From: Paracoccus sediminicola | Lineage (GTDB): Bacteria; Pseudomonadota; Alphaproteobacteria; Rhodobacterales; Rhodobacteraceae | Reading direction: 5' to 3' | NCBI RefSeq assembly: GCF_027912835.1 | Contig: NZ_CP115768.1 | Location: 3,092,501-3,156,500 of the forward strand | DNA length: 64,000 nt | Shown: one piece after another, positions 16,231 through 27,383 of the stretch | Position numbering within the stretch: position 1 is the stretch's first letter | Layout of the letters: each line of letters opens with the position of its first letter | Notes under the pieces: generated by a model | The model's input: only the letters and a program-made list of their open reading frames with translations | Databases searched by the model: none | Told to the model about the DNA's origin: nothing | Made by a program: the position numbers and the translations under genes

Positions 16231-17406
16231 ATGGCACATCCCGAGCGGTTTTCGAACCTGCCGGAATACGCATTTCCGCGCCTGCGCGCGCTGTTGTCGG
16301 GTATCGAACCCGGCGGCGACCCGATGGTGATGACCATCGGAGAGCCGCGTCATCCCTTGCCGGATTTCGTGGCGCCCGTCATGGCCGAGACCGTCGCCCA
16401 ATTCGGCAAATACCCTCCGAACGAGGGCACACCCGCGTTGCTCGAGGCGATTTCGGGCTGGATCGCGCGCCGCCACGCAATCGAGGTCGCGCCCGATCAG
16501 ATCACCAGTCTCAACGGAACGCGCGAGGGTCTGTTCAACGCGGCGCTGGCGCTCTGCCCGGAAAGGAAGAACGGACAGCAACCCGCGGTGCTGATCCCGA
16601 ATCCTTTCTATCAGGTCTATGCCGTCGCCGCCGCTGCGGTCGGCGCCGAGCCGGTCTTTGTCGCCGCCACCGCAGATAACGGGTTCCTGCCCGATTTTGC
16701 CGCCCTGCCGGATGCGACGCTGGATCGCACCGCCATCGCCTATATCTGCTCTCCCGCCAACCCGCAGGGCTCGGTGGCGGACGAGGACTATCTGGAGCGG
16801 CTGATTGCGCTGGCCGAAAAGCACGATTTCCTGATCTTCTCCGATGAATGCTATTCCGAGATCTATCGCGATACCCCGCCGCCCGGCGCTCTGGCCGTGG
16901 CAACGCGGATGGGCGCGGCGGATCGGGTGGTGATGTTCAACTCGCTTTCCAAACGCTCGAACCTGCCCGGGCTGCGCTCGGGCTTTGCAGCGGGGGCGCG
17001 GGCGCATATCGCCGAGCTGCGTCGCCTGCGCAGCTATTCCGGTGCGCCGATGCCGCTGCCCGCGCAGGCCGTAAGCGCGCATGCCTGGTCCGCGGAAACC
17101 CACGTCACCGAGAACCGCGAGCTGTATCATCGCAAATACGCTGTGGCTGACCGCGTGTTGGGCAATGTGCCGGGCTATCGCGGGCCGGAGGGCGGCTTCT
17201 TCCTGTGGCTTCCGGTCGAGGACGGCGAAGAGGCTGCCGTGACGCTGTGGCGCGAGGCCGGGATCCAGGTGCTGCCGGGCGCCTATCTCTCGCGTGAGGT
17301 GGCGGGAGAGAACCCGGGGCAGGCCTATATCCGCACGGCTCTGGTCGCGGCGGAGGACGAAACCGAACAGGCGCTCGAACGCCTGAAGCAGACATTATAC
17401 GAGTAG
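16231..17406 (+). CDS. Class I/II PLP aminotransferase
   Basis: A 391-residue fold-type I aminotransferase. PLP contacts are visible: SPANPQG, the SDECYSEIY block, the Schiff-base Lys in [16 protein letters not shown], and the substrate carboxylate Arg in YIRTAL near the C-terminus. The closest functional annotations for this subtype are N-succinyldiaminopimelate aminotransferase (DapC-like), but assignment within class I is uncertain. If DapC, it would act in lysine/peptidoglycan synthesis. It is separated from ftsK by 11 nt and probably co-transcribed with it. Confidence 0.88.
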
Positions 17407-20147: not shown

Positions 20148-20864
20148 ATGACTGTCTGGAACATCCATTTCCTCAACGCCCGTCACGGTCTGACCGGCGT
20201 GATGCCCGATATCCGCGCTGCCGCGCGCGAGGCGATTGGGCAGGCATCGGAACATGTCGCGCTGCCCGATTTCGATCTGGTCATCCGTTCGGGCGATGCC
20301 GTCATCACCGGCTGGGGGGCGGCGGGCGCGGCGCCCGGGCCAGGAGAGATTCGATTGACCGTGGACCCGCCGCGCTTCGATCGCGACAGCCTGATCCGCA
20401 TCCTTGTCCACGAATTGCACCACCTGCTGCGCTGGGACGGGCCCGGATATGGCAAATCGCTGGGCGAGGCGCTGGTCAGCGAAGGGTTGGCCGGACATTT
20501 CGTCTTGCAGGTCCTCGGCGGAAAGCCCGACCCCTGGGACGCCGTCACCCCAGCCGCCGGTCTGACGCGGCGCGCGCTCAACGAATGGTCGCGCCTTGGC
20601 TATGACCATTCGGAATGGTTCTTCGGCAGCGGCAAGAGCATCCGCCGTTGGGGCGGTTATGGGCTTGGGCATCGCATCGTTGCGCGTCATCTGGAAGATC
20701 ATGCGGGCACCGACGCGGTGACGCTGGCCCACGCCCCGGCGGATGCCTTTCGCAGCGCCATACGCATTCTTGCCAAGGACGACGCGGAACCTGCCGAAGC
20801 CGCCCCCTCGCCACCCGGCCCTGAGACGGCACCGCCCGCCGAACGCGCCCGCTCTTCATCCTGA
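20148..20864 (+). CDS. DUF2268-type putative zinc metalloprotease
   Basis: A 238-residue protein with the zinc motif HELHH at residues 88-92, followed by a Glu-rich helix (GEALVSEGLAGHF) that can supply the third ligand, and a downstream WFFGSG and GYGLGHRIV segment typical of DUF2268. No signal peptide is visible, so it is probably cytoplasmic. The last 35 residues are Pro/Ala/Glu-rich and disordered. The ATG at 20148 has an AAGGG site upstream. Target proteins are unknown; the position 108 nt after ftsK need not be functional. Confidence 0.75.
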   Translation: MTVWNIHFLNARHGLTGVMPDIRAAAREAIGQASEHVALPDFDLVIRSGDAVITGWGAAGAAPGPGEIRLTVDPPRFDRDSLIRILVHELHHLLRWDGPGYGKSLGEALVSEGLAGHFVLQVLGGKPDPWDAVTPAAGLTRRALNEWSRLGYDHSEWFFGSGKSIRRWGGYGLGHRIVARHLEDHAGTDAVTLAHAPADAFRSAIRILAKDDAEPAEAAPSPPGPETAPPAERARSSS

Positions 20865-20883
20865 CGGAAATATCCCGGGGGTG

Positions 20884-20900
20884 CGGGGGCAGCGCCCCCG
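20884..20900. terminator. GC hairpin between convergent genes
   Basis: A 7-bp stem CGGGGGC/GCCCCCG with an AGC loop between the metalloprotease-like gene and the Asd-like gene. There is no T-tract on either strand, so it may be a Rho-assisted or mRNA-end structure. GGGGGCNGCGCCCCC-type hairpins are common 3' elements in Rhodobacteraceae. Confidence 0.45.
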
Positions 20901-20910
20901 ATGCGGCGGC

Positions 20911-21933
20911 TCAGCCCTTTTGCAGATGCTCGCGGCCGAGGATCTCGGCGATCTGCACCGCGTTCAGCGCCGCGCCCTTGCGCAGATTATCGGCGACGAG
21001 CCACATATTCAGCCCGTTCTCAACCGTCGGGTCCTGCCGCAGCCGCGACACGAAGGTCGCGAAATCGCCGACCGTCTCGACCGGCGTGACATAGCCGCCA
21101 TCCTCGCGCTTATCGACCAGCAACAGACCGGGCGCCTCGCGCAGGATGTCGCGCGCCTCATCCTCGTCAAGAAAATCCTCGAACTCGACATTCACCGATT
21201 CCGCATCGCCGACAAAGACCGGCACCCGGACACAGGTCACCGACAGCCGGATCGCCGGGTCCAGAATCTTCTTGGTCTCGGCCATGATCTGCCACTCGGC
21301 GCGGCTGGAGCCGTCTTCCATGAAGGCGCCGACCTGCGGGATCACGTTGAACGCGATCTGCCGCGGGAACTGGTTCGGCTCGACCTCCTGACCCGGCACA
21401 TACATGCCCTTGGTCTGGTTCCACAGCTCGTCCATCTGAGCGTTCCCGGCCCCGGACACGGCCTGATAGGTCGACACCACCGTGCGGCGCACCCGTGCCC
21501 GGTCATGCAGCGGCTTCAGCGCGGCGACCAGGGCCGAACTGGCGGCATCGGGGCAGGATACGATCATCTTTTCGCGATAGCCGCCGATTGCCGCGGCGTT
21601 CACCTCGGGCGCAACCAGGGGCACGGAGGGGTCCATACGGAACGCCTCTGAACAATCGATTACGACGCAGCCCGCGGCGGCGGCGGATGGGGCGTGTTTA
21701 CGCGCCTCATCGCTCTCCATCGCGAACAGCGCCATGTCGAAACCTTCGAAGTCGAAATTCTCGACATCGCGGGTCTTGAGCGTTTCTTCGCCAAAACTGA
21801 CCTCGGTTCCCAATGAGCGGCGCGGCCCCAGCGCCACCACCTCATCGGCGGGGAATTCACGCTCGGCGAGAATGTTCAGGATCTCATGGCCGAGATTGCT
21901 CGTAGCTCCGGCGACGGCGATTCGATAGCCCAT
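20911..21933 (-). CDS. Aspartate-semialdehyde dehydrogenase homologue lacking catalytic residues
   Basis: A 340-residue full-length homologue of Asd with clear family hallmarks: Rossmann GATSNLG, VPLVAPEVN, STYQAVSGAG, IAFNVIPQVGAF, TCVRVPV and the C-terminal DNLRKGAALNAVQIAE. However, the catalytic Cys region, normally NPNC, reads CPDA (127-130), placing Ala130 at the nucleophile position, and the acid-base His of GHSE is Asp243 in GDAE. The glycine-rich loop also has Ser for Gly. The frame is intact, so this is not ordinary decay. It is unlikely to make aspartate semialdehyde; a true asd is expected elsewhere. A precedent for a non-catalytic relative is gammaproteobacterial Usg-1. A structural, regulatory or altered catalytic role is inference. 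It lies 105 nt downstream of livF on the same strand. Confidence 0.85.
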   Translation of the reverse strand: MGYRIAVAGATSNLGHEILNILAEREFPADEVVALGPRRSLGTEVSFGEETLKTRDVENFDFEGFDMALFAMESDEARKHAPSAAAAGCVVIDCSEAFRMDPSVPLVAPEVNAAAIGGYREKMIVSCPDAASSALVAALKPLHDRARVRRTVVSTYQAVSGAGNAQMDELWNQTKGMYVPGQEVEPNQFPRQIAFNVIPQVGAFMEDGSSRAEWQIMAETKKILDPAIRLSVTCVRVPVFVGDAESVNVEFEDFLDEDEARDILREAPGLLLVDKREDGGYVTPVETVGDFATFVSRLRQDPTVENGLNMWLVADNLRKGAALNAVQIAEILGREHLQKG

Positions 21934-22038: not shown

Positions 22039-22723
<685 letters not shown>

Positions 22724-22731
<8 letters not shown>

Positions 22732-23440
22732 GATGCTGGCTTTTCAGCGCGGCGCGTGCCGCGTCGGGGGCGCCGTCAAAGACGATGCGCCCCCGATCCA
22801 TCAGGGCGATGCGGTCGGCAATGGCAAAGGCCAAATCCAGATCATGCTCGATCACCACCATGGCCGGTTCACGCGGCAGGCTGGCGATCAGCCTGTGCAG
22901 CTCTGCCGCGCCGCCCGGACCGATCCCCGCGGCAGGCTCGTCCAGCAGGATCAGCCGCGCATCGCCGCTGAGAGCCAATGCGAGATCCAGCCGCCGTCTC
23001 GTGCCGTGATCGGCCGCAGCGACGCGTTGTTCCAGATGGCGAAGCCCGACCAGATCGGCGACCCGCTCTGCCTCGGCGCGCAGCGCGTCATCGCGCAGCG
23101 GATCGCGGCGGGGGGCCGCATCGCCCCTGCGCGCGGCGGCGGCGATGACGAGGTTCTCCGCCAGAGTAAGGCTTTCGAAAAGGGAGGGATGCTGGAAGCC
23201 GCGCCCGATGCCAGCGCGCGCGCTCGCCGCGGCTCCGGCGGTGGTGATGTCGCGCCCGGCAAGACGGATGCGCCCCTCATCGGGCCGCAATTCTCCGCAG
23301 ATCAGCCGCATCAGCGTCGTCTTGCCCGCCCCGTTCGGCCCGAGGATCACCAGCCGCTCGCCCGCCGCGACATGAAGCGACAGTCCCGAGATCGCCTCGA
23401 CCGCGCCGAAGCTTTTGCTCAGACCTTCCAGCTCAAGCAT
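22724..23440 (-). CDS. livG: Branched-chain amino acid-type ABC transporter ATPase (LivG)
   Basis: A 238-residue ATPase subunit with Walker A GPNGAGKTT, FQHPSLFESLTLAENLV after the Q-loop, and Walker B LILLDEPAAG. The signature motif is the LivG-type degenerate one (HGTRRRLDLALAL instead of LSGGQ). The C-terminal helix typical of longer LivG proteins is shortened. The start overlaps livM by 8 nt. It forms the heterodimeric motor with LivF. Confidence 0.88.
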
Positions 23441-24362
23441 GACGCCGCGCCTCGAACTCTCCGTAGATTCCCCGACCCCCAGCCAGCACGACGAGGATCA
23501 GCAGCGCACCGATCACCAGATGCCAGTGATCCGTCCATCCGGCAGCCCAATGCTTCAGGAGCACAAAGCAAGCCGCGCCGATCACCGGGCCGGTCAACGT
23601 GCCGATCCCGCCGAGGATCAGCACCACCAGTGCCTCGCCCGAGGCAGTCCAGACCAGCAATTCAGGCGAGACGAACTGGATATGCTGCGCGGCAAGCACC
23701 CCCGCGACGCCCGCCAGCGCAGAGGACAGCGCAAAGGCCCCGATCCGGTAACGCGATGCCGAAATCCCCAGCGCGGCGGCGCGGTCGGGATTGTCGCGCA
23801 GCGCCTCGAGCATGCGCCCCGCGCGGCTGCGCAGAAACGCGGCGGTCAGGGCGAAAACCAGCACCAGCAGTGCCAGAGCATAAATCGCGAAGCCCAGCGG
23901 TGCGTCTGTTTCAAGCCCCGGCACAGCAGGGCGCGGCACACCGCCCAGCCCGTTATCGCCTCCCAAGGCGTCGCTGCGGAACACAAAGCTCCACGCCATC
24001 TGTCCGAAGGCGAGCGTCGCCATGATGAAAAAGATCCCCCGGGTGCGCATGCAGATCGCGCCCATCGCGCCGCCAAACAGCGCAGCCACTGCGATACCGC
24101 ACGCCGACGCGTTCCAGACGGGCAGCCCGGCCTGCGCGGCCAGCGCATAGCCATAGGCGCCAACCCCCATGATCGCGCCATGCGCCAGCGACACCATTCC
24201 GCCAAATCCCGCAGCAAGATCGAGCGCGATGACGAGGATCGCAAGCACCGCGATTTCGGCAACGATCTCGCGGGCGAAAAAGCCACCCGCCAGCGACCAT
24301 ATGGCCAGACCCGTTACGGTGGCGGCAAAGGCGCCGGCACGCATCGCGCTCAGCCGGAACAT
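23433..24362 (-). CDS. livM: Branched-chain amino acid-type ABC transporter permease (LivM)
   Basis: A 309-residue membrane protein with about 8-10 hydrophobic helices. Typical features are LAAGFGGMVSLAHGAIMGVGAYGYAL near the N-terminus and LVVLILGGIGTLTGPVIGA near the C-terminus, the LivM permease signature. Its ATG shares an A with the stop of livH (TGATG), so translation is coupled. It forms the transmembrane pore with LivH. Confidence 0.9.
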   Translation of the reverse strand: MFRLSAMRAGAFAATVTGLAIWSLAGGFFAREIVAEIAVLAILVIALDLAAGFGGMVSLAHGAIMGVGAYGYALAAQAGLPVWNASACGIAVAALFGGAMGAICMRTRGIFFIMATLAFGQMAWSFVFRSDALGGDNGLGGVPRPAVPGLETDAPLGFAIYALALLVLVFALTAAFLRSRAGRMLEALRDNPDRAAALGISASRYRIGAFALSSALAGVAGVLAAQHIQFVSPELLVWTASGEALVVLILGGIGTLTGPVIGAACFVLLKHWAAGWTDHWHLVIGALLILVVLAGGRGIYGEFEARRHA

Positions 24363-25228
24363 CAGCGCGCGCGCCCAGCGCTCAGCAACCCCTCGGGCCG
24401 CCAGATCAGCGCGGCGGCGAGGGCGGCATAGATCAGCACCGCACTCGCATCGGGCCAGAGCGCAGCGCCGAACACCTCGATCGCGGCGACGATCACCGCG
24501 CCCAGCATCGCGCCCGGGATCGATCCCAGCCCGCCAATTACCGTGACGATCAGGGCCGGGATCAGCGCGGTCACCGCCATGGAGGGGCTGACGGAGAGGA
24601 TCGGTGCGGCAATGACTCCGCCCAGCCCGGCAAGCGACGCGCCAAGGGTAAAGACAGCCAGGAAAAGCCTTTCGGTGCGGATGCCGATCGCACGGGCCAT
24701 ATCACGGTTTTCGACCGCAGCGCGGATCGCCGCGCCGAGATGGCTGCGGGTCATCCCGGCCCACAGGCTCAGCGCGACCGCGCCGCCCAGAAGGATAACG
24801 AACAGGCGATAGGACGGATATGCGGTGTCGAGAATTATGCGCGTCCCCGAGAGAGCCTTTGGCACGTCCAGCGTCAGCGGCACATCGCCCCAGATGATGC
24901 GGACCGCCTCGACGGCAAGGAAGACCAGCCCGAAGCTGACCAACACCTGCGGCATCGGTCCGGCCCCTGCGATCCGGCGCAGCAAACCCTGATGCAGCGC
25001 CGCGCCGATTGCGCCGATCGCCAGCGGCGCGACGATCAGCGCTGTCCAGAACCCGACGCCGCCAGCGATCGAAACCCCGATATAGGCGCCCAGCATATAC
25101 AGCGCGCCATGGGCAAGGTTCACGAACCCCATCAGTCCGAAGCTGACCGAGAGCCCGGCCGAAATCAGGAACAGCAGCGCCGCGTATTGCAGCGCGTTCA
25201 GCGCCTGAAGGGTCCAGAAAACCGACAC
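24362..25228 (-). CDS. livH: Branched-chain amino acid-type ABC transporter permease (LivH)
   Basis: A 288-residue hydrophobic permease starting with GTG immediately after the stop of the binding-protein gene (no spacer). Family marks are SFGLMGFVNLAHGALYMLGAYIG and VTVIGGLGSIPGAMLGAVIV. It pairs with LivM. The tight packing indicates that binding protein and permease are translated together. Confidence 0.9.
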   Translation of the reverse strand: MSVFWTLQALNALQYAALLFLISAGLSVSFGLMGFVNLAHGALYMLGAYIGVSIAGGVGFWTALIVAPLAIGAIGAALHQGLLRRIAGAGPMPQVLVSFGLVFLAVEAVRIIWGDVPLTLDVPKALSGTRIILDTAYPSYRLFVILLGGAVALSLWAGMTRSHLGAAIRAAVENRDMARAIGIRTERLFLAVFTLGASLAGLGGVIAAPILSVSPSMAVTALIPALIVTVIGGLGSIPGAMLGAVIVAAIEVFGAALWPDASAVLIYAALAAALIWRPEGLLSAGRAR

Positions 25229-26371
25229 TCAGCCCATCTCGCAACCATTCGGGGCGTCGCGCACCGCCTCGATCGTGTCGAGCAGGCGATGGGTCATTTC
25301 GCCGTCCTTGCTGACGGTTTCGAAGACATAGACATTCTGCACGATGTTATTGGTCGCCGAATCGATCTCCAACGGGCCGCGCGGGCCGGTATAGGCCACT
25401 TGCGGCAAAGCGCGGGCCAACTCCTCGCGCCCCGCGGCCCCGCTGTCGAGCGCGCCCAGAAGCAGCCGCCCCGCGTCATAACCGGCAACGACATATTCGG
25501 AAGGCAGGTCTCCGTCATGCGCGGCGCGATAGGCATCGACGAAGGCGGCGTTCTCGGGCGTGTCCAGCGAAGGCAGATAATGCAGCGCGCCGATCACGCC
25601 CTCCGCCGCCTCGCCCTGCGAGCGCAGGTAAAGCGGCGCGGTCAGGAAACCCACGGCGTATAGCGGCATCTGGTCGCGCAAACCGAAGCTGTCATATTGC
25701 TTCACGAAGCTGATCGCATCCGCACCGCCATAAAAGACGTAAAGCGCCTCGGCCCCGGATGCCTGCGCCTTTGCCAGATACGGTCCGAAATCCTCGGTCC
25801 GGCCGAACGGGGTGAAGTCGCCGCCGATCACCTCTCCGCCGCCAGCCTCGAACGCGTCCGAGAACGCCCCGATCATCTGCTGTCCCGCCGCATAATCCGG
25901 GGCGAGCGTATAGACAGAGCCTATCCCCTCGGCCGCCATCCACTCGCCCATCGGCCGGTTCAGCTGATCGTTCGAGAAGCTGACGCGGGTGATATAGGGC
26001 GAGCAATCCTTGCCGGTCGCGTCGCTGTTCCCCGCATTGGCGACGATCAGCGGCGTGCCCGAGCCGTCCACCACGTCGCGCACCGCCCCCAGCACCGCCG
26101 AGGACACCACGCCCACCAGCACATCCGCGCGGTCCTGCATGATCAGCTTGCGGGCGCGGGTCAGTCCGGTTTGCGGCTTCGCCTCGGTGTCCTCGCGCAG
26201 GATGGTGATGTCGTCCCGCCCGGCCCCGCCAATGGCCATGCGGAAGCCGTCCTCGATATCCTGACCGAGCGCCGCGTAATTGCCCGAGGCGGGCAGCAAC
26301 AGGCCGACTGTCGTGTCGGCAGCTGCGGGGCAGGCGAGGGCGATCAGGGCGGCGGCGAGGGCGTGTTTCAT
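25229..26371 (-). CDS. livK: ABC transporter periplasmic substrate-binding protein, LivK type
   Basis: A 380-residue periplasmic protein of the leucine-isoleucine-valine-binding (type I) fold. The signal peptide is MKHALAAALIALACPAAAD, and the mature N-terminus TTVGLLLPASGNYAALGQ is typical of HAAT-family receptors. The C-terminus includes DSATNNIVQNVYVF, common in members that bind other polar amino acids or amides, so leucine specificity is not assured. The start at 26371 is chosen because the signal peptide begins there; longer frames prepend unrelated sequence. It is the first gene of the operon and is separated by 70 nt from the SorC-type regulator, also minus-strand. Confidence 0.88.
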   Translation of the reverse strand: MKHALAAALIALACPAAADTTVGLLLPASGNYAALGQDIEDGFRMAIGGAGRDDITILREDTEAKPQTGLTRARKLIMQDRADVLVGVVSSAVLGAVRDVVDGSGTPLIVANAGNSDATGKDCSPYITRVSFSNDQLNRPMGEWMAAEGIGSVYTLAPDYAAGQQMIGAFSDAFEAGGGEVIGGDFTPFGRTEDFGPYLAKAQASGAEALYVFYGGADAISFVKQYDSFGLRDQMPLYAVGFLTAPLYLRSQGEAAEGVIGALHYLPSLDTPENAAFVDAYRAAHDGDLPSEYVVAGYDAGRLLLGALDSGAAGREELARALPQVAYTGPRGPLEIDSATNNIVQNVYVFETVSKDGEMTHRLLDTIEAVRDAPNGCEMG

Positions 26372-26441
26372 CGGTCGCTCCGTGGTCAGTGTCGAAGGGA
26401 AGGGATAAACGCCCGGCCCGGCCCGGCCAAGCGGAAAGGCG

Positions 26442-27383
26442 TCAGGCCGCGGTTTCGGGCTGGTCCAGCAGCCATCGCGCCATCGGCTCATCGGTGATCA
26501 GCCCGTTGACCAGCCCGCCGCGCAGCGCGCCCAGCGTGGCGGCCCGCTTATGCGCGCCCTGCACGGCAGCGACGATCAGCCGCCCCTCCGGGTCCGGCAT
26601 GCGGGCCGAGGCGACCCTTACATCGCGAGGCAGCAACCGGCCATGCGCGTCGAAGGCATGGCCCAGGATCTCTCCGACCCCGCCGGCCTCGGACAGCGCG
26701 GCAACTTCATCCGGGCTCAGGAACCCGTCAGCCATCAGCGGCGCGTTCGGGCCCAGATCGCCGATCCCGACAATTGCGGCCTCTGCCGCGGCGGCGAGCG
26801 CCATCACCCGCGTATTTCCGGGCTGGCGATGCAACGCGTCGCGTTCCTCGGACGAGGCGGCGATGACCGGAACCATCAGGGGGAAGCTGCTGGCGGTGAC
26901 GATCTCGGACAGCGAGAACAGGACGTTGTAATAGGCCGCCGAGCCATCCGGCGCGATATTCCCGGTCAGCGAGACGATATTATGCTGCGGGCAGTCCAGA
27001 TGCGACATCTGCAACACCCCCGAGCGCAGGGTCCGGCCGTTCCCGATGGCCAGCGTCATCGGAGCCTCTCGCGACAGAAGCGATTCGATCAGCTCGGCGA
27101 TCAGCATCGCGACACCGGCCTGACCGGTCAGCGCCGGGGCCACATCGGCGCGACGCAGCCCGAAGCGCTCGCGCAGCTTTGCGCCCAGGTCGAGACAATC
27201 GGCCAGCGGGTGGTCGATGCGGACCTTCACGATCCCCGCCGCCATGGCCTGCGCGGTCAGACGCTGCGCGCCCTGCCGCGAGATTCCCATCTCGCGGGCG
27301 ATTTCATCCTGCGTCATGCCGCCGACCCAGGACAGCCATGCCGCCCGCGCCGCCTGATCCAGCCTGTCGGAGTCTCGTGTCAT
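26442..27383 (-). CDS. SorC-family sugar-responsive regulator of the polyol operon
   Basis: A 313-residue regulator. Residues 10-60 form an HTH (GGMTQDEIAREMGISRQGAQRLTAQAM), and the rest is the SorC/DeoR-type sugar-binding domain with IGNGRTLRSG and VGIGDLG motifs. It diverges from the smoE operon by 129 bp, the standard arrangement for a local regulator; the Rhodobacter polyol operon also has a regulator called smoC, to which this may correspond. The effector is probably a polyol, a ketose or their phosphate (inference). The start at 27383 gives MTRDSDRLDQAARAAW; the longer open frame beyond it is antisense to smoE. Confidence 0.88.
   Translation of the reverse strand: MTRDSDRLDQAARAAWLSWVGGMTQDEIAREMGISRQGAQRLTAQAMAAGIVKVRIDHPLADCLDLGAKLRERFGLRRADVAPALTGQAGVAMLIAELIESLLSREAPMTLAIGNGRTLRSGVLQMSHLDCPQHNIVSLTGNIAPDGSAAYYNVLFSLSEIVTASSFPLMVPVIAASSEERDALHRQPGNTRVMALAAAAEAAIVGIGDLGPNAPLMADGFLSPDEVAALSEAGGVGEILGHAFDAHGRLLPRDVRVASARMPDPEGRLIVAAVQGAHKRAATLGALRGGLVNGLITDEPMARWLLDQPETAA

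Follow-up and report, generated by a model that had tools for sequence, protein, structure and literature searches.

A degenerate resident aspartate-semialdehyde dehydrogenase of Paracoccus, probably kept as a conserved pseudoenzyme after displacement by an imported gamma-type enzyme

Aspartate-semialdehyde dehydrogenase (Asd) is essential in most bacteria and has been studied as a drug target. The described systems closest to the gene studied here are the asd_B enzymes (TIGR01296, PRK14874), the gamma-type enzymes (TIGR01745) and Usg of E. coli (b2319), an asd_B relative that lacks the catalytic Cys and coexists with a gamma-type Asd. The Usg homologue of P. aeruginosa is PDB 2hjs. One Salmonella paper (PMC6358828) mentions Usg, truA and semialdehyde dehydrogenase. 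In the open-access literature, no paper was found that links Usg-1 with Asd or the USG-1 protein with semialdehyde, and none that joins aspartate semialdehyde dehydrogenase with pseudoenzyme, or Asd with paralog and catalytic cysteine. Searches on Paracoccus with Asd, and on semialdehyde dehydrogenase with pseudoenzyme, gave nothing relevant by title and the start of the abstract, and none of the listed matches on gene displacement used the word pseudoenzyme. The open-access literature, a scope outside which most subscription papers lie, thus yielded no description of the displacement and pseudoenzyme case in Paracoccus.

The window analyzed here is a 64,000-nucleotide stretch of Paracoccus sediminicola DNA. 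It encodes an Asd homologue (hereafter the window Asd) with altered motifs:

20911..21933, minus strand: degenerate alpha-type Asd of the asd_B family, 340 amino acids, without the catalytic Cys and His (ORF, translation and family matches)
21889..21909, minus strand, codons 9-15: nucleotide loop GATSNLG, with Ser at the Gly12 position (translation)
21532..21555, minus strand, codons 127-134: CPDAASSA in place of the NPNCSTAQ of intact relatives, with Ala130 for the nucleophilic Cys (translation and alignments)
21196..21210, minus strand, codons 242-246: GDAES in place of the GH[SA]E[SA] of intact relatives, with Asp243 for the acid-base His (translation and alignments)

The reading frame begins with ATG and runs through 340 codons to a stop without any internal stop. 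Both Pfam domains (PF01118 and PF02774) score above their cut-offs, the dimerization domain spanning residues 139-319 according to Pfam. The gene also belongs to the asd_B family by TIGR01296 (369.7 bits against a cut-off of 324.2) and PRK14874 (416.9 against 223). The window Asd therefore shares the fold, the length, both domains and most structural residues with asd_B enzymes, and it groups with the intact resident Asd of other Paracoccus in a tree. Unlike those enzymes, it has neither the catalytic Cys of NPNC nor the acid-base His of GH[SA]E, its nucleotide loop is changed and its genome holds a second Asd. An AlphaFold model (mean pLDDT 81, weak at 159-201) retrieved Asd structures first in a structure search, with 2hjs at rank 21; the model agrees with an Asd fold and is silent on function. 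Two NCBIfam equivalog profiles label the window Asd a working Asd, with scores above cut-off. Automatic annotation will misname this protein and probably its relatives likewise, and naming a presumably dead Asd in this way would mislead metabolic models and predictions of essential genes.

The preliminary description of this locus had reported a complete frame with CPDA, GDAE and the GATSNLG loop, all of which were borne out by the ORF and translation, by the profiles and by the alignments. Aligned to three solved Asd sequences, the window Asd is free of gaps at both motifs, and Ala130 and Asp243 occupy the Cys and His positions. Asn127, Asn129, Cys130, Ser131 and His243 are invariant across 106 intact homologues of the genus, so the motif changes are not ordinary variation. 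A register shift that would make Cys127 the nucleophile was considered and is excluded, because the motif alignments contain no gap and Cys127 aligns to the first Asn of NPNC, three residues from the Cys position. Among the best 80 of 566 relatives, similar motifs appear in Paracoccus isoporae (CPDA and GDAE) and Paracoccus sp. S1E-3 (SPDG and GDAE); the remaining 78 have NPNCST with GHSE or GHAE. These two records possibly represent the same species as some of the genus genomes described below and were kept out of the count of 16 species. A sequencing error or a decaying pseudogene is ruled out by the complete frames and low dN/dS of 16 species, and likewise by the similar motifs of the two named records.

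Usg-1 had been put forward as a precedent for such a protein, and it holds as an analogy in that Usg also lacks the Cys; the details differ. Both proteins have PD for PN in the nucleophile motif (VPDS in E. coli Usg, CPDA in the window Asd). However, E. coli Usg keeps the His (GHAQ) and has lost the equivalents of Gln157, Arg99 and Arg236, while the reverse is true of the window Asd. E. coli usg adjoins truA; in contrast, the window gene sits between an ABC transporter operon and a DUF2268 gene, and truA is not adjacent. The window Asd scores under the NCBIfam cut-offs of PRK08040 (238.6 against 273) and PRK05671 (259.9 against 284), which we take to be Usg-like subfamilies. Based on these scores, on an identity of 66-86% between the degenerate proteins and other members of the genus, and on their grouping with Paracoccus enzymes in a tree built without Usg, Usg-1 and the degenerate Asd of Paracoccus are most likely alike in kind and separate in origin.

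The P. sediminicola genome (3.53 Mb, 99.99% complete) encodes one other member of the dimerization-domain family, at C1:2743022-2744140. This protein is an asd_gamma of the E. coli type (TIGR01745, 556 bits against a cut-off of 402.9, with E. coli as the positive control), and its motifs GGNC and RCHSQ are intact. It is only about 23% identical to the window Asd over the aligned part, i.e. it belongs to a distant subfamily, and it is the presumed supplier of the activity that the window Asd, without Cys and His, would have lost. A search for a second asd with NPNC and GHSE had been proposed. A second gene is indeed present, but it is of another subfamily; since the genome holds another Asd with intact motifs, the result favors the pseudoenzyme reading. 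In two alphaproteobacterial genomes of about 1.2 Mb (G613 and G887), a gamma-type Asd is the sole asd_B or asd_gamma match, which indicates that such an enzyme can suffice.

A profile search found asd_gamma above its cut-off in 20 of 125 genomes of the genus, and in all 20 the Cys, His, Gln and Glu-Thr-Asn-Lys motifs of this enzyme are intact. The resident Asd could be read in 123 of the 125. Its match is split in G031 and ends at residue 267 in G163, representing either assembly errors or real breaks. NPNC is kept in all 103 genomes that lack gamma-Asd, with GHSE in 95 and GHAE in eight. The resident gene is also retained in every genome that carries gamma-Asd; however, 16 of these 20 have lost both Cys and His, while four (G021, G024, G104 and G160) have two intact enzymes. 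The link between gamma-Asd and degeneration is strong (Fisher p 1e-16, with genomes taken as independent of kinship). The 16 degenerate genes form two clades, A with 12 members, including the window Asd, and B with four. The Cys position holds Ala in six of them, Gly in six, Pro in two and Thr in two. The His position holds Asp throughout clade A and Gln throughout clade B, and Gly12, present without exception in the 106 intact genes, has been replaced by Ser, Thr or Asp in 12 of the 16. Beyond the genus, asd_gamma was found in three of 393 further genomes in a sample of the family, all with an intact resident Asd, and in two of 384 other genomes of the class sample, where it is itself the only asd_B match. 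As three other genera and 4/20 genomes within the genus keep an intact resident Asd, displacement is not a constant outcome.

In all 20 carriers, asd_gamma is flanked by recQ and a thioesterase-like gene, with an extra gene in some. When recQ was sought in 21 genomes it was found in 20, the exception (G041) lying outside the 17 no-gamma Paracoccus whose region was read; in all 17, recQ and the thioesterase-like gene are 433-541 bases apart without asd_gamma between them. This common site points to one insertion of asd_gamma.

All 16 degenerate genes are open, encoding 340 amino acids in 15 genomes and 339 in G049. Selection was estimated from medians of pairwise NG86 dN/dS over pairs with dS < 1.2; the pairs are non-independent and the method is approximate at these distances, but the medians of the degenerate genes (0.178 in clade A, 63 of 66 pairs; 0.151 in clade B, 6/6 pairs) lie close to those of the resident Asd in two-enzyme genomes (0.138, 6/6 pairs) and in no-gamma genomes (0.153, all 5151 pairs), and to that of the clade-A asd_gamma (0.157, 31 of 66 pairs, counting only pairs of equal length). 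The degenerate Asd is thus under purifying selection approximately equal to that of a working enzyme. Neither the broken frame nor the neutral dN/dS of a pseudogene was seen in any of the 16, with dN/dS at 0.15-0.18; what is found instead is the combination expected of a conserved pseudoenzyme, namely an intact gene, purifying selection and the absence of catalytic residues.

The constraint is not evenly distributed along the protein. Among 219 sites that are invariant in intact genes (with at most one exception), 123 are unchanged in all 16 degenerate genes. We compared mean pairwise identities within clade A with those of intact genes (a sample of 40 of 102), over stretches picked after viewing the alignment. 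The catalytic and nucleotide loops differ markedly, at 82 vs 97% for residues 1-15, 52 vs 95% for 71-78, 65 vs 100% for 94-101, 59 vs 100% for 127-135 and 54 vs 93% for 157-165. In contrast, three segments are held, at 89 vs 88% for 166-200, 87 vs 89% for 247-290 and 91 vs 81% for 291-305. Other stretches of the dimerization domain are relaxed in clade A (136-156, 80 vs 98%; 201-217, 74 vs 85%), as is the C-terminal part (306-340, 81 vs 96%). Over larger units, identities are 83 vs 89% for the dimerization domain (139-319), 74 vs 86% for the N-terminal residues 1-126 and 78 vs 89% for the whole protein. Clade B is 62-87% identical at the same five loop stretches, against 93-100% in intact genes, and 99% identical at 166-200. 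These identities indicate that constraint has gone from the catalytic and nucleotide loops and remains in parts of the dimerization domain. Part of the pocket is nevertheless kept: Gln157, Glu219, Lys221, Arg38 and Ser40 are present in all 16 degenerate genes, Arg236 in 14 and Arg99 in all 12 of clade A and none of the four of clade B. Of these, Gln157, Glu219, Lys221, Arg236 and Arg99 are presumably substrate-site residues of Asd. Such retention is more in keeping with binding than with a novel oxidoreductase.

Whether the catalytic residues were lost once or several times is answered differently by different genes. The majority residue is changed at 30 of the 219 sites in clade A and at 32 in clade B; 19 changed sites are common to both, against 4.4 expected if the changes were independent, and 10 of them have the same majority residue. 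Both degenerate clades come together (100/98) in a tree of the resident gene with outgroups and motif columns dropped, and again (98/93) in a DNA tree from which further functional columns had been removed. In the matching protein tree, one degenerate clade was neither shown nor rejected (p-AU 0.595). A grouping of clade B with the intact gene of G021 was not rejected (p-AU 0.097 for protein, 0.285 for DNA), and one of clade A with G155 was weakly rejected (0.033 and 0.031). Conversely, one degenerate clade is rejected by rpoB (p-AU 0.0039, with 10 of 12 clade-A and three of four clade-B genomes included) and by five genes of the recQ region (p-AU 1e-7). The rpoB tree contained 30 genomes, of 35 with an rpoB match among 38 sought. 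Nor do rpoB (p-AU 6.6e-5) or the recQ-region genes (p-AU 2e-39) group the gamma genomes, and if these markers follow the species, asd_gamma was lost from some lineages or exchanged. G049 stands apart from the other clade-B genomes in the recQ-region tree without asd_gamma, joins them in the tree of recQ plus asd_gamma (100/99), and in the rpoB tree lies with the other clade-B genomes and G021, a single clade of the three clade-B genomes being neither shown nor rejected there (p-AU 0.43). The degenerate Asd may therefore have arisen either once, followed by gene exchange, or through parallel losses, at least two in number. The intact resident enzymes of G021, G024 and G160 fall in one group with the degenerate proteins (96/95). 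Arg211 occurs in all four two-enzyme and in 13 of the 16 degenerate resident genes, compared with none of 102 without gamma-Asd, and Pro190 is common to all four and all 16. Such sharing among species that rpoB does not group hints at exchange of genes or at coupled histories of two loci that are not linked.

Based on these observations, it is probable that an imported gamma-Asd displaced the resident enzyme, which was kept as a conserved, non-catalytic pseudoenzyme with a probable role in binding. In such a scenario, a gamma-type gene would have been inserted in Paracoccus genomes between recQ and the thioesterase-like gene and would now supply aspartate semialdehyde for lysine and DAP, threonine and methionine. 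The resident alpha-type Asd, thereby freed from catalysis, would then have shed its nucleophile and its acid-base His in 16 species, together with several nearby invariant residues, while its fold, its length and parts of its dimerization domain stayed under purifying selection. The degenerate protein would most likely persist as a dimer with a non-catalytic role in binding or as a scaffold, and the partner or ligand contact that it retains was probably one that the active enzyme already had. We infer from the sequences that gamma-Asd carries the whole flux and that the degenerate protein lacks Asd activity, is dimeric and acts by binding, not catalysis. The pseudoenzyme suggestion of the preliminary description is thus strongly supported at the sequence level by the second, intact Asd, by purifying selection and by the loss of Cys and His across 16 species, a conservation that it had asked to be checked.

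The kept pocket residues are a point against a non-catalytic pseudoenzyme, as an altered role in catalysis or one in ligand sensing would be compatible with them too. If the protein catalyzed a novel reaction with NADP(H) and the remaining pocket residues but without Cys and His, this would account for the five residues present in 16/16 genes, for Arg236 in 14/16 and for the uniform Asp243 of clade A and Gln243 of clade B. However, few parts change faster than the loops of the pocket and of the nucleotide site, with Gly12 lost in 12/16 and Arg99 lost in clade B, and position 130 varies among Ala, Gly, Thr and Pro within a stretch (127-135) that has dropped to 59% identity in clade A from 100% in intact genes. 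The nucleotide and substrate loops being relaxed as well, a new reaction, which had also been proposed earlier, is less likely, and we consider it improbable. Residual Asd activity through an altered active site could draw on the same remaining pocket. With the nucleophile and the acid-base residue both gone in 16/16, and with degeneration seen in the genus only where another Asd is present, we give it next to no weight.

Two further explanations concern why the gene is still there. It could be on its way to loss, with selection acting only against toxic misfolding, or persist by inertia; the greater variability of clade A (78 vs 89% mean identity in intact genes) and the long branch of G121 in the resident-Asd tree would agree with this. 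It is nevertheless quite unlikely given 16 open frames of 339-340 amino acids, the low dN/dS, no loss of the gene in 20 gamma genomes and the segments in which conservation equals or exceeds that of intact genes. The earlier idea that the degenerate protein regulates the true Asd in hetero-oligomers can draw on its occurrence, within the genus, only alongside gamma-Asd and on its conserved dimerization-domain segments. The working Asd is, however, of a different subfamily with about 23% identity, and four genomes have both enzymes intact, so that mixed oligomers appear very unlikely.

As a broader and more tentative reading, alpha-type Asd may have a hidden second, non-catalytic function in its dimerization domain that was exposed by the imported replacement, which would re-run the path of Usg-1 independently. 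We regard this as possible but doubtful. If it is true, the resident protein could shed its catalytic core and yet not be deleted, with the two-enzyme species still alive, and the 19 shared changed sites would reflect parallel selection for the hidden function and not common descent. This one genus offers a natural experiment in which species have the old enzyme, both, or the new enzyme with a disarmed old one, so that the catalytic role of a core enzyme can be told apart from any non-catalytic one. Paracoccus is thus a tractable system for asking what Usg-1-like proteins do.

The preliminary description had also named two neighbors of the window gene, and both are real:

22039..26491, minus strand: five-gene Urt/Liv-type ABC transporter operon, directly upstream of the window Asd across a 105-base gap (NCBIfam and Pfam scans)
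16231..17406, plus strand: DapC-like aminotransferase (TIGR03538, 398.5 bits, under the cut-off of 474.6; PF00155)

The ABC operon lies beside the resident Asd in nine of 12 clade-A genomes and in none of the eight other gamma genomes, and is therefore probably an incidental neighbor. A glycosyltransferase-like gene, named by its look and not by a profile, adjoins the resident asd in 68 of 123 genomes, including all four of clade B and three of the four two-enzyme genomes. Since it does so in none of the 12 clade-A genomes, the clade-A gene has probably moved, which makes a functional partnership of the degenerate Asd with the ABC operon or the DapC-like gene improbable. No conserved operon partner of the degenerate Asd was found; clade B and many intact species have one site in common, and the clade-A gene lies elsewhere. 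Remnants of an old asd were absent within about 1.5 kb of a frequent neighbor of intact asd in five of five clade-A genomes, and equally in the no-gamma control G155, where the resident gene is on another contig, so this result says little. Finally, a 302-amino acid antisense ORF (20743-21651, plus strand) overlaps the window Asd and has matches in all 20 gamma genomes; it is probably a by-product of high G+C, because dN/dS is low in the asd frame.
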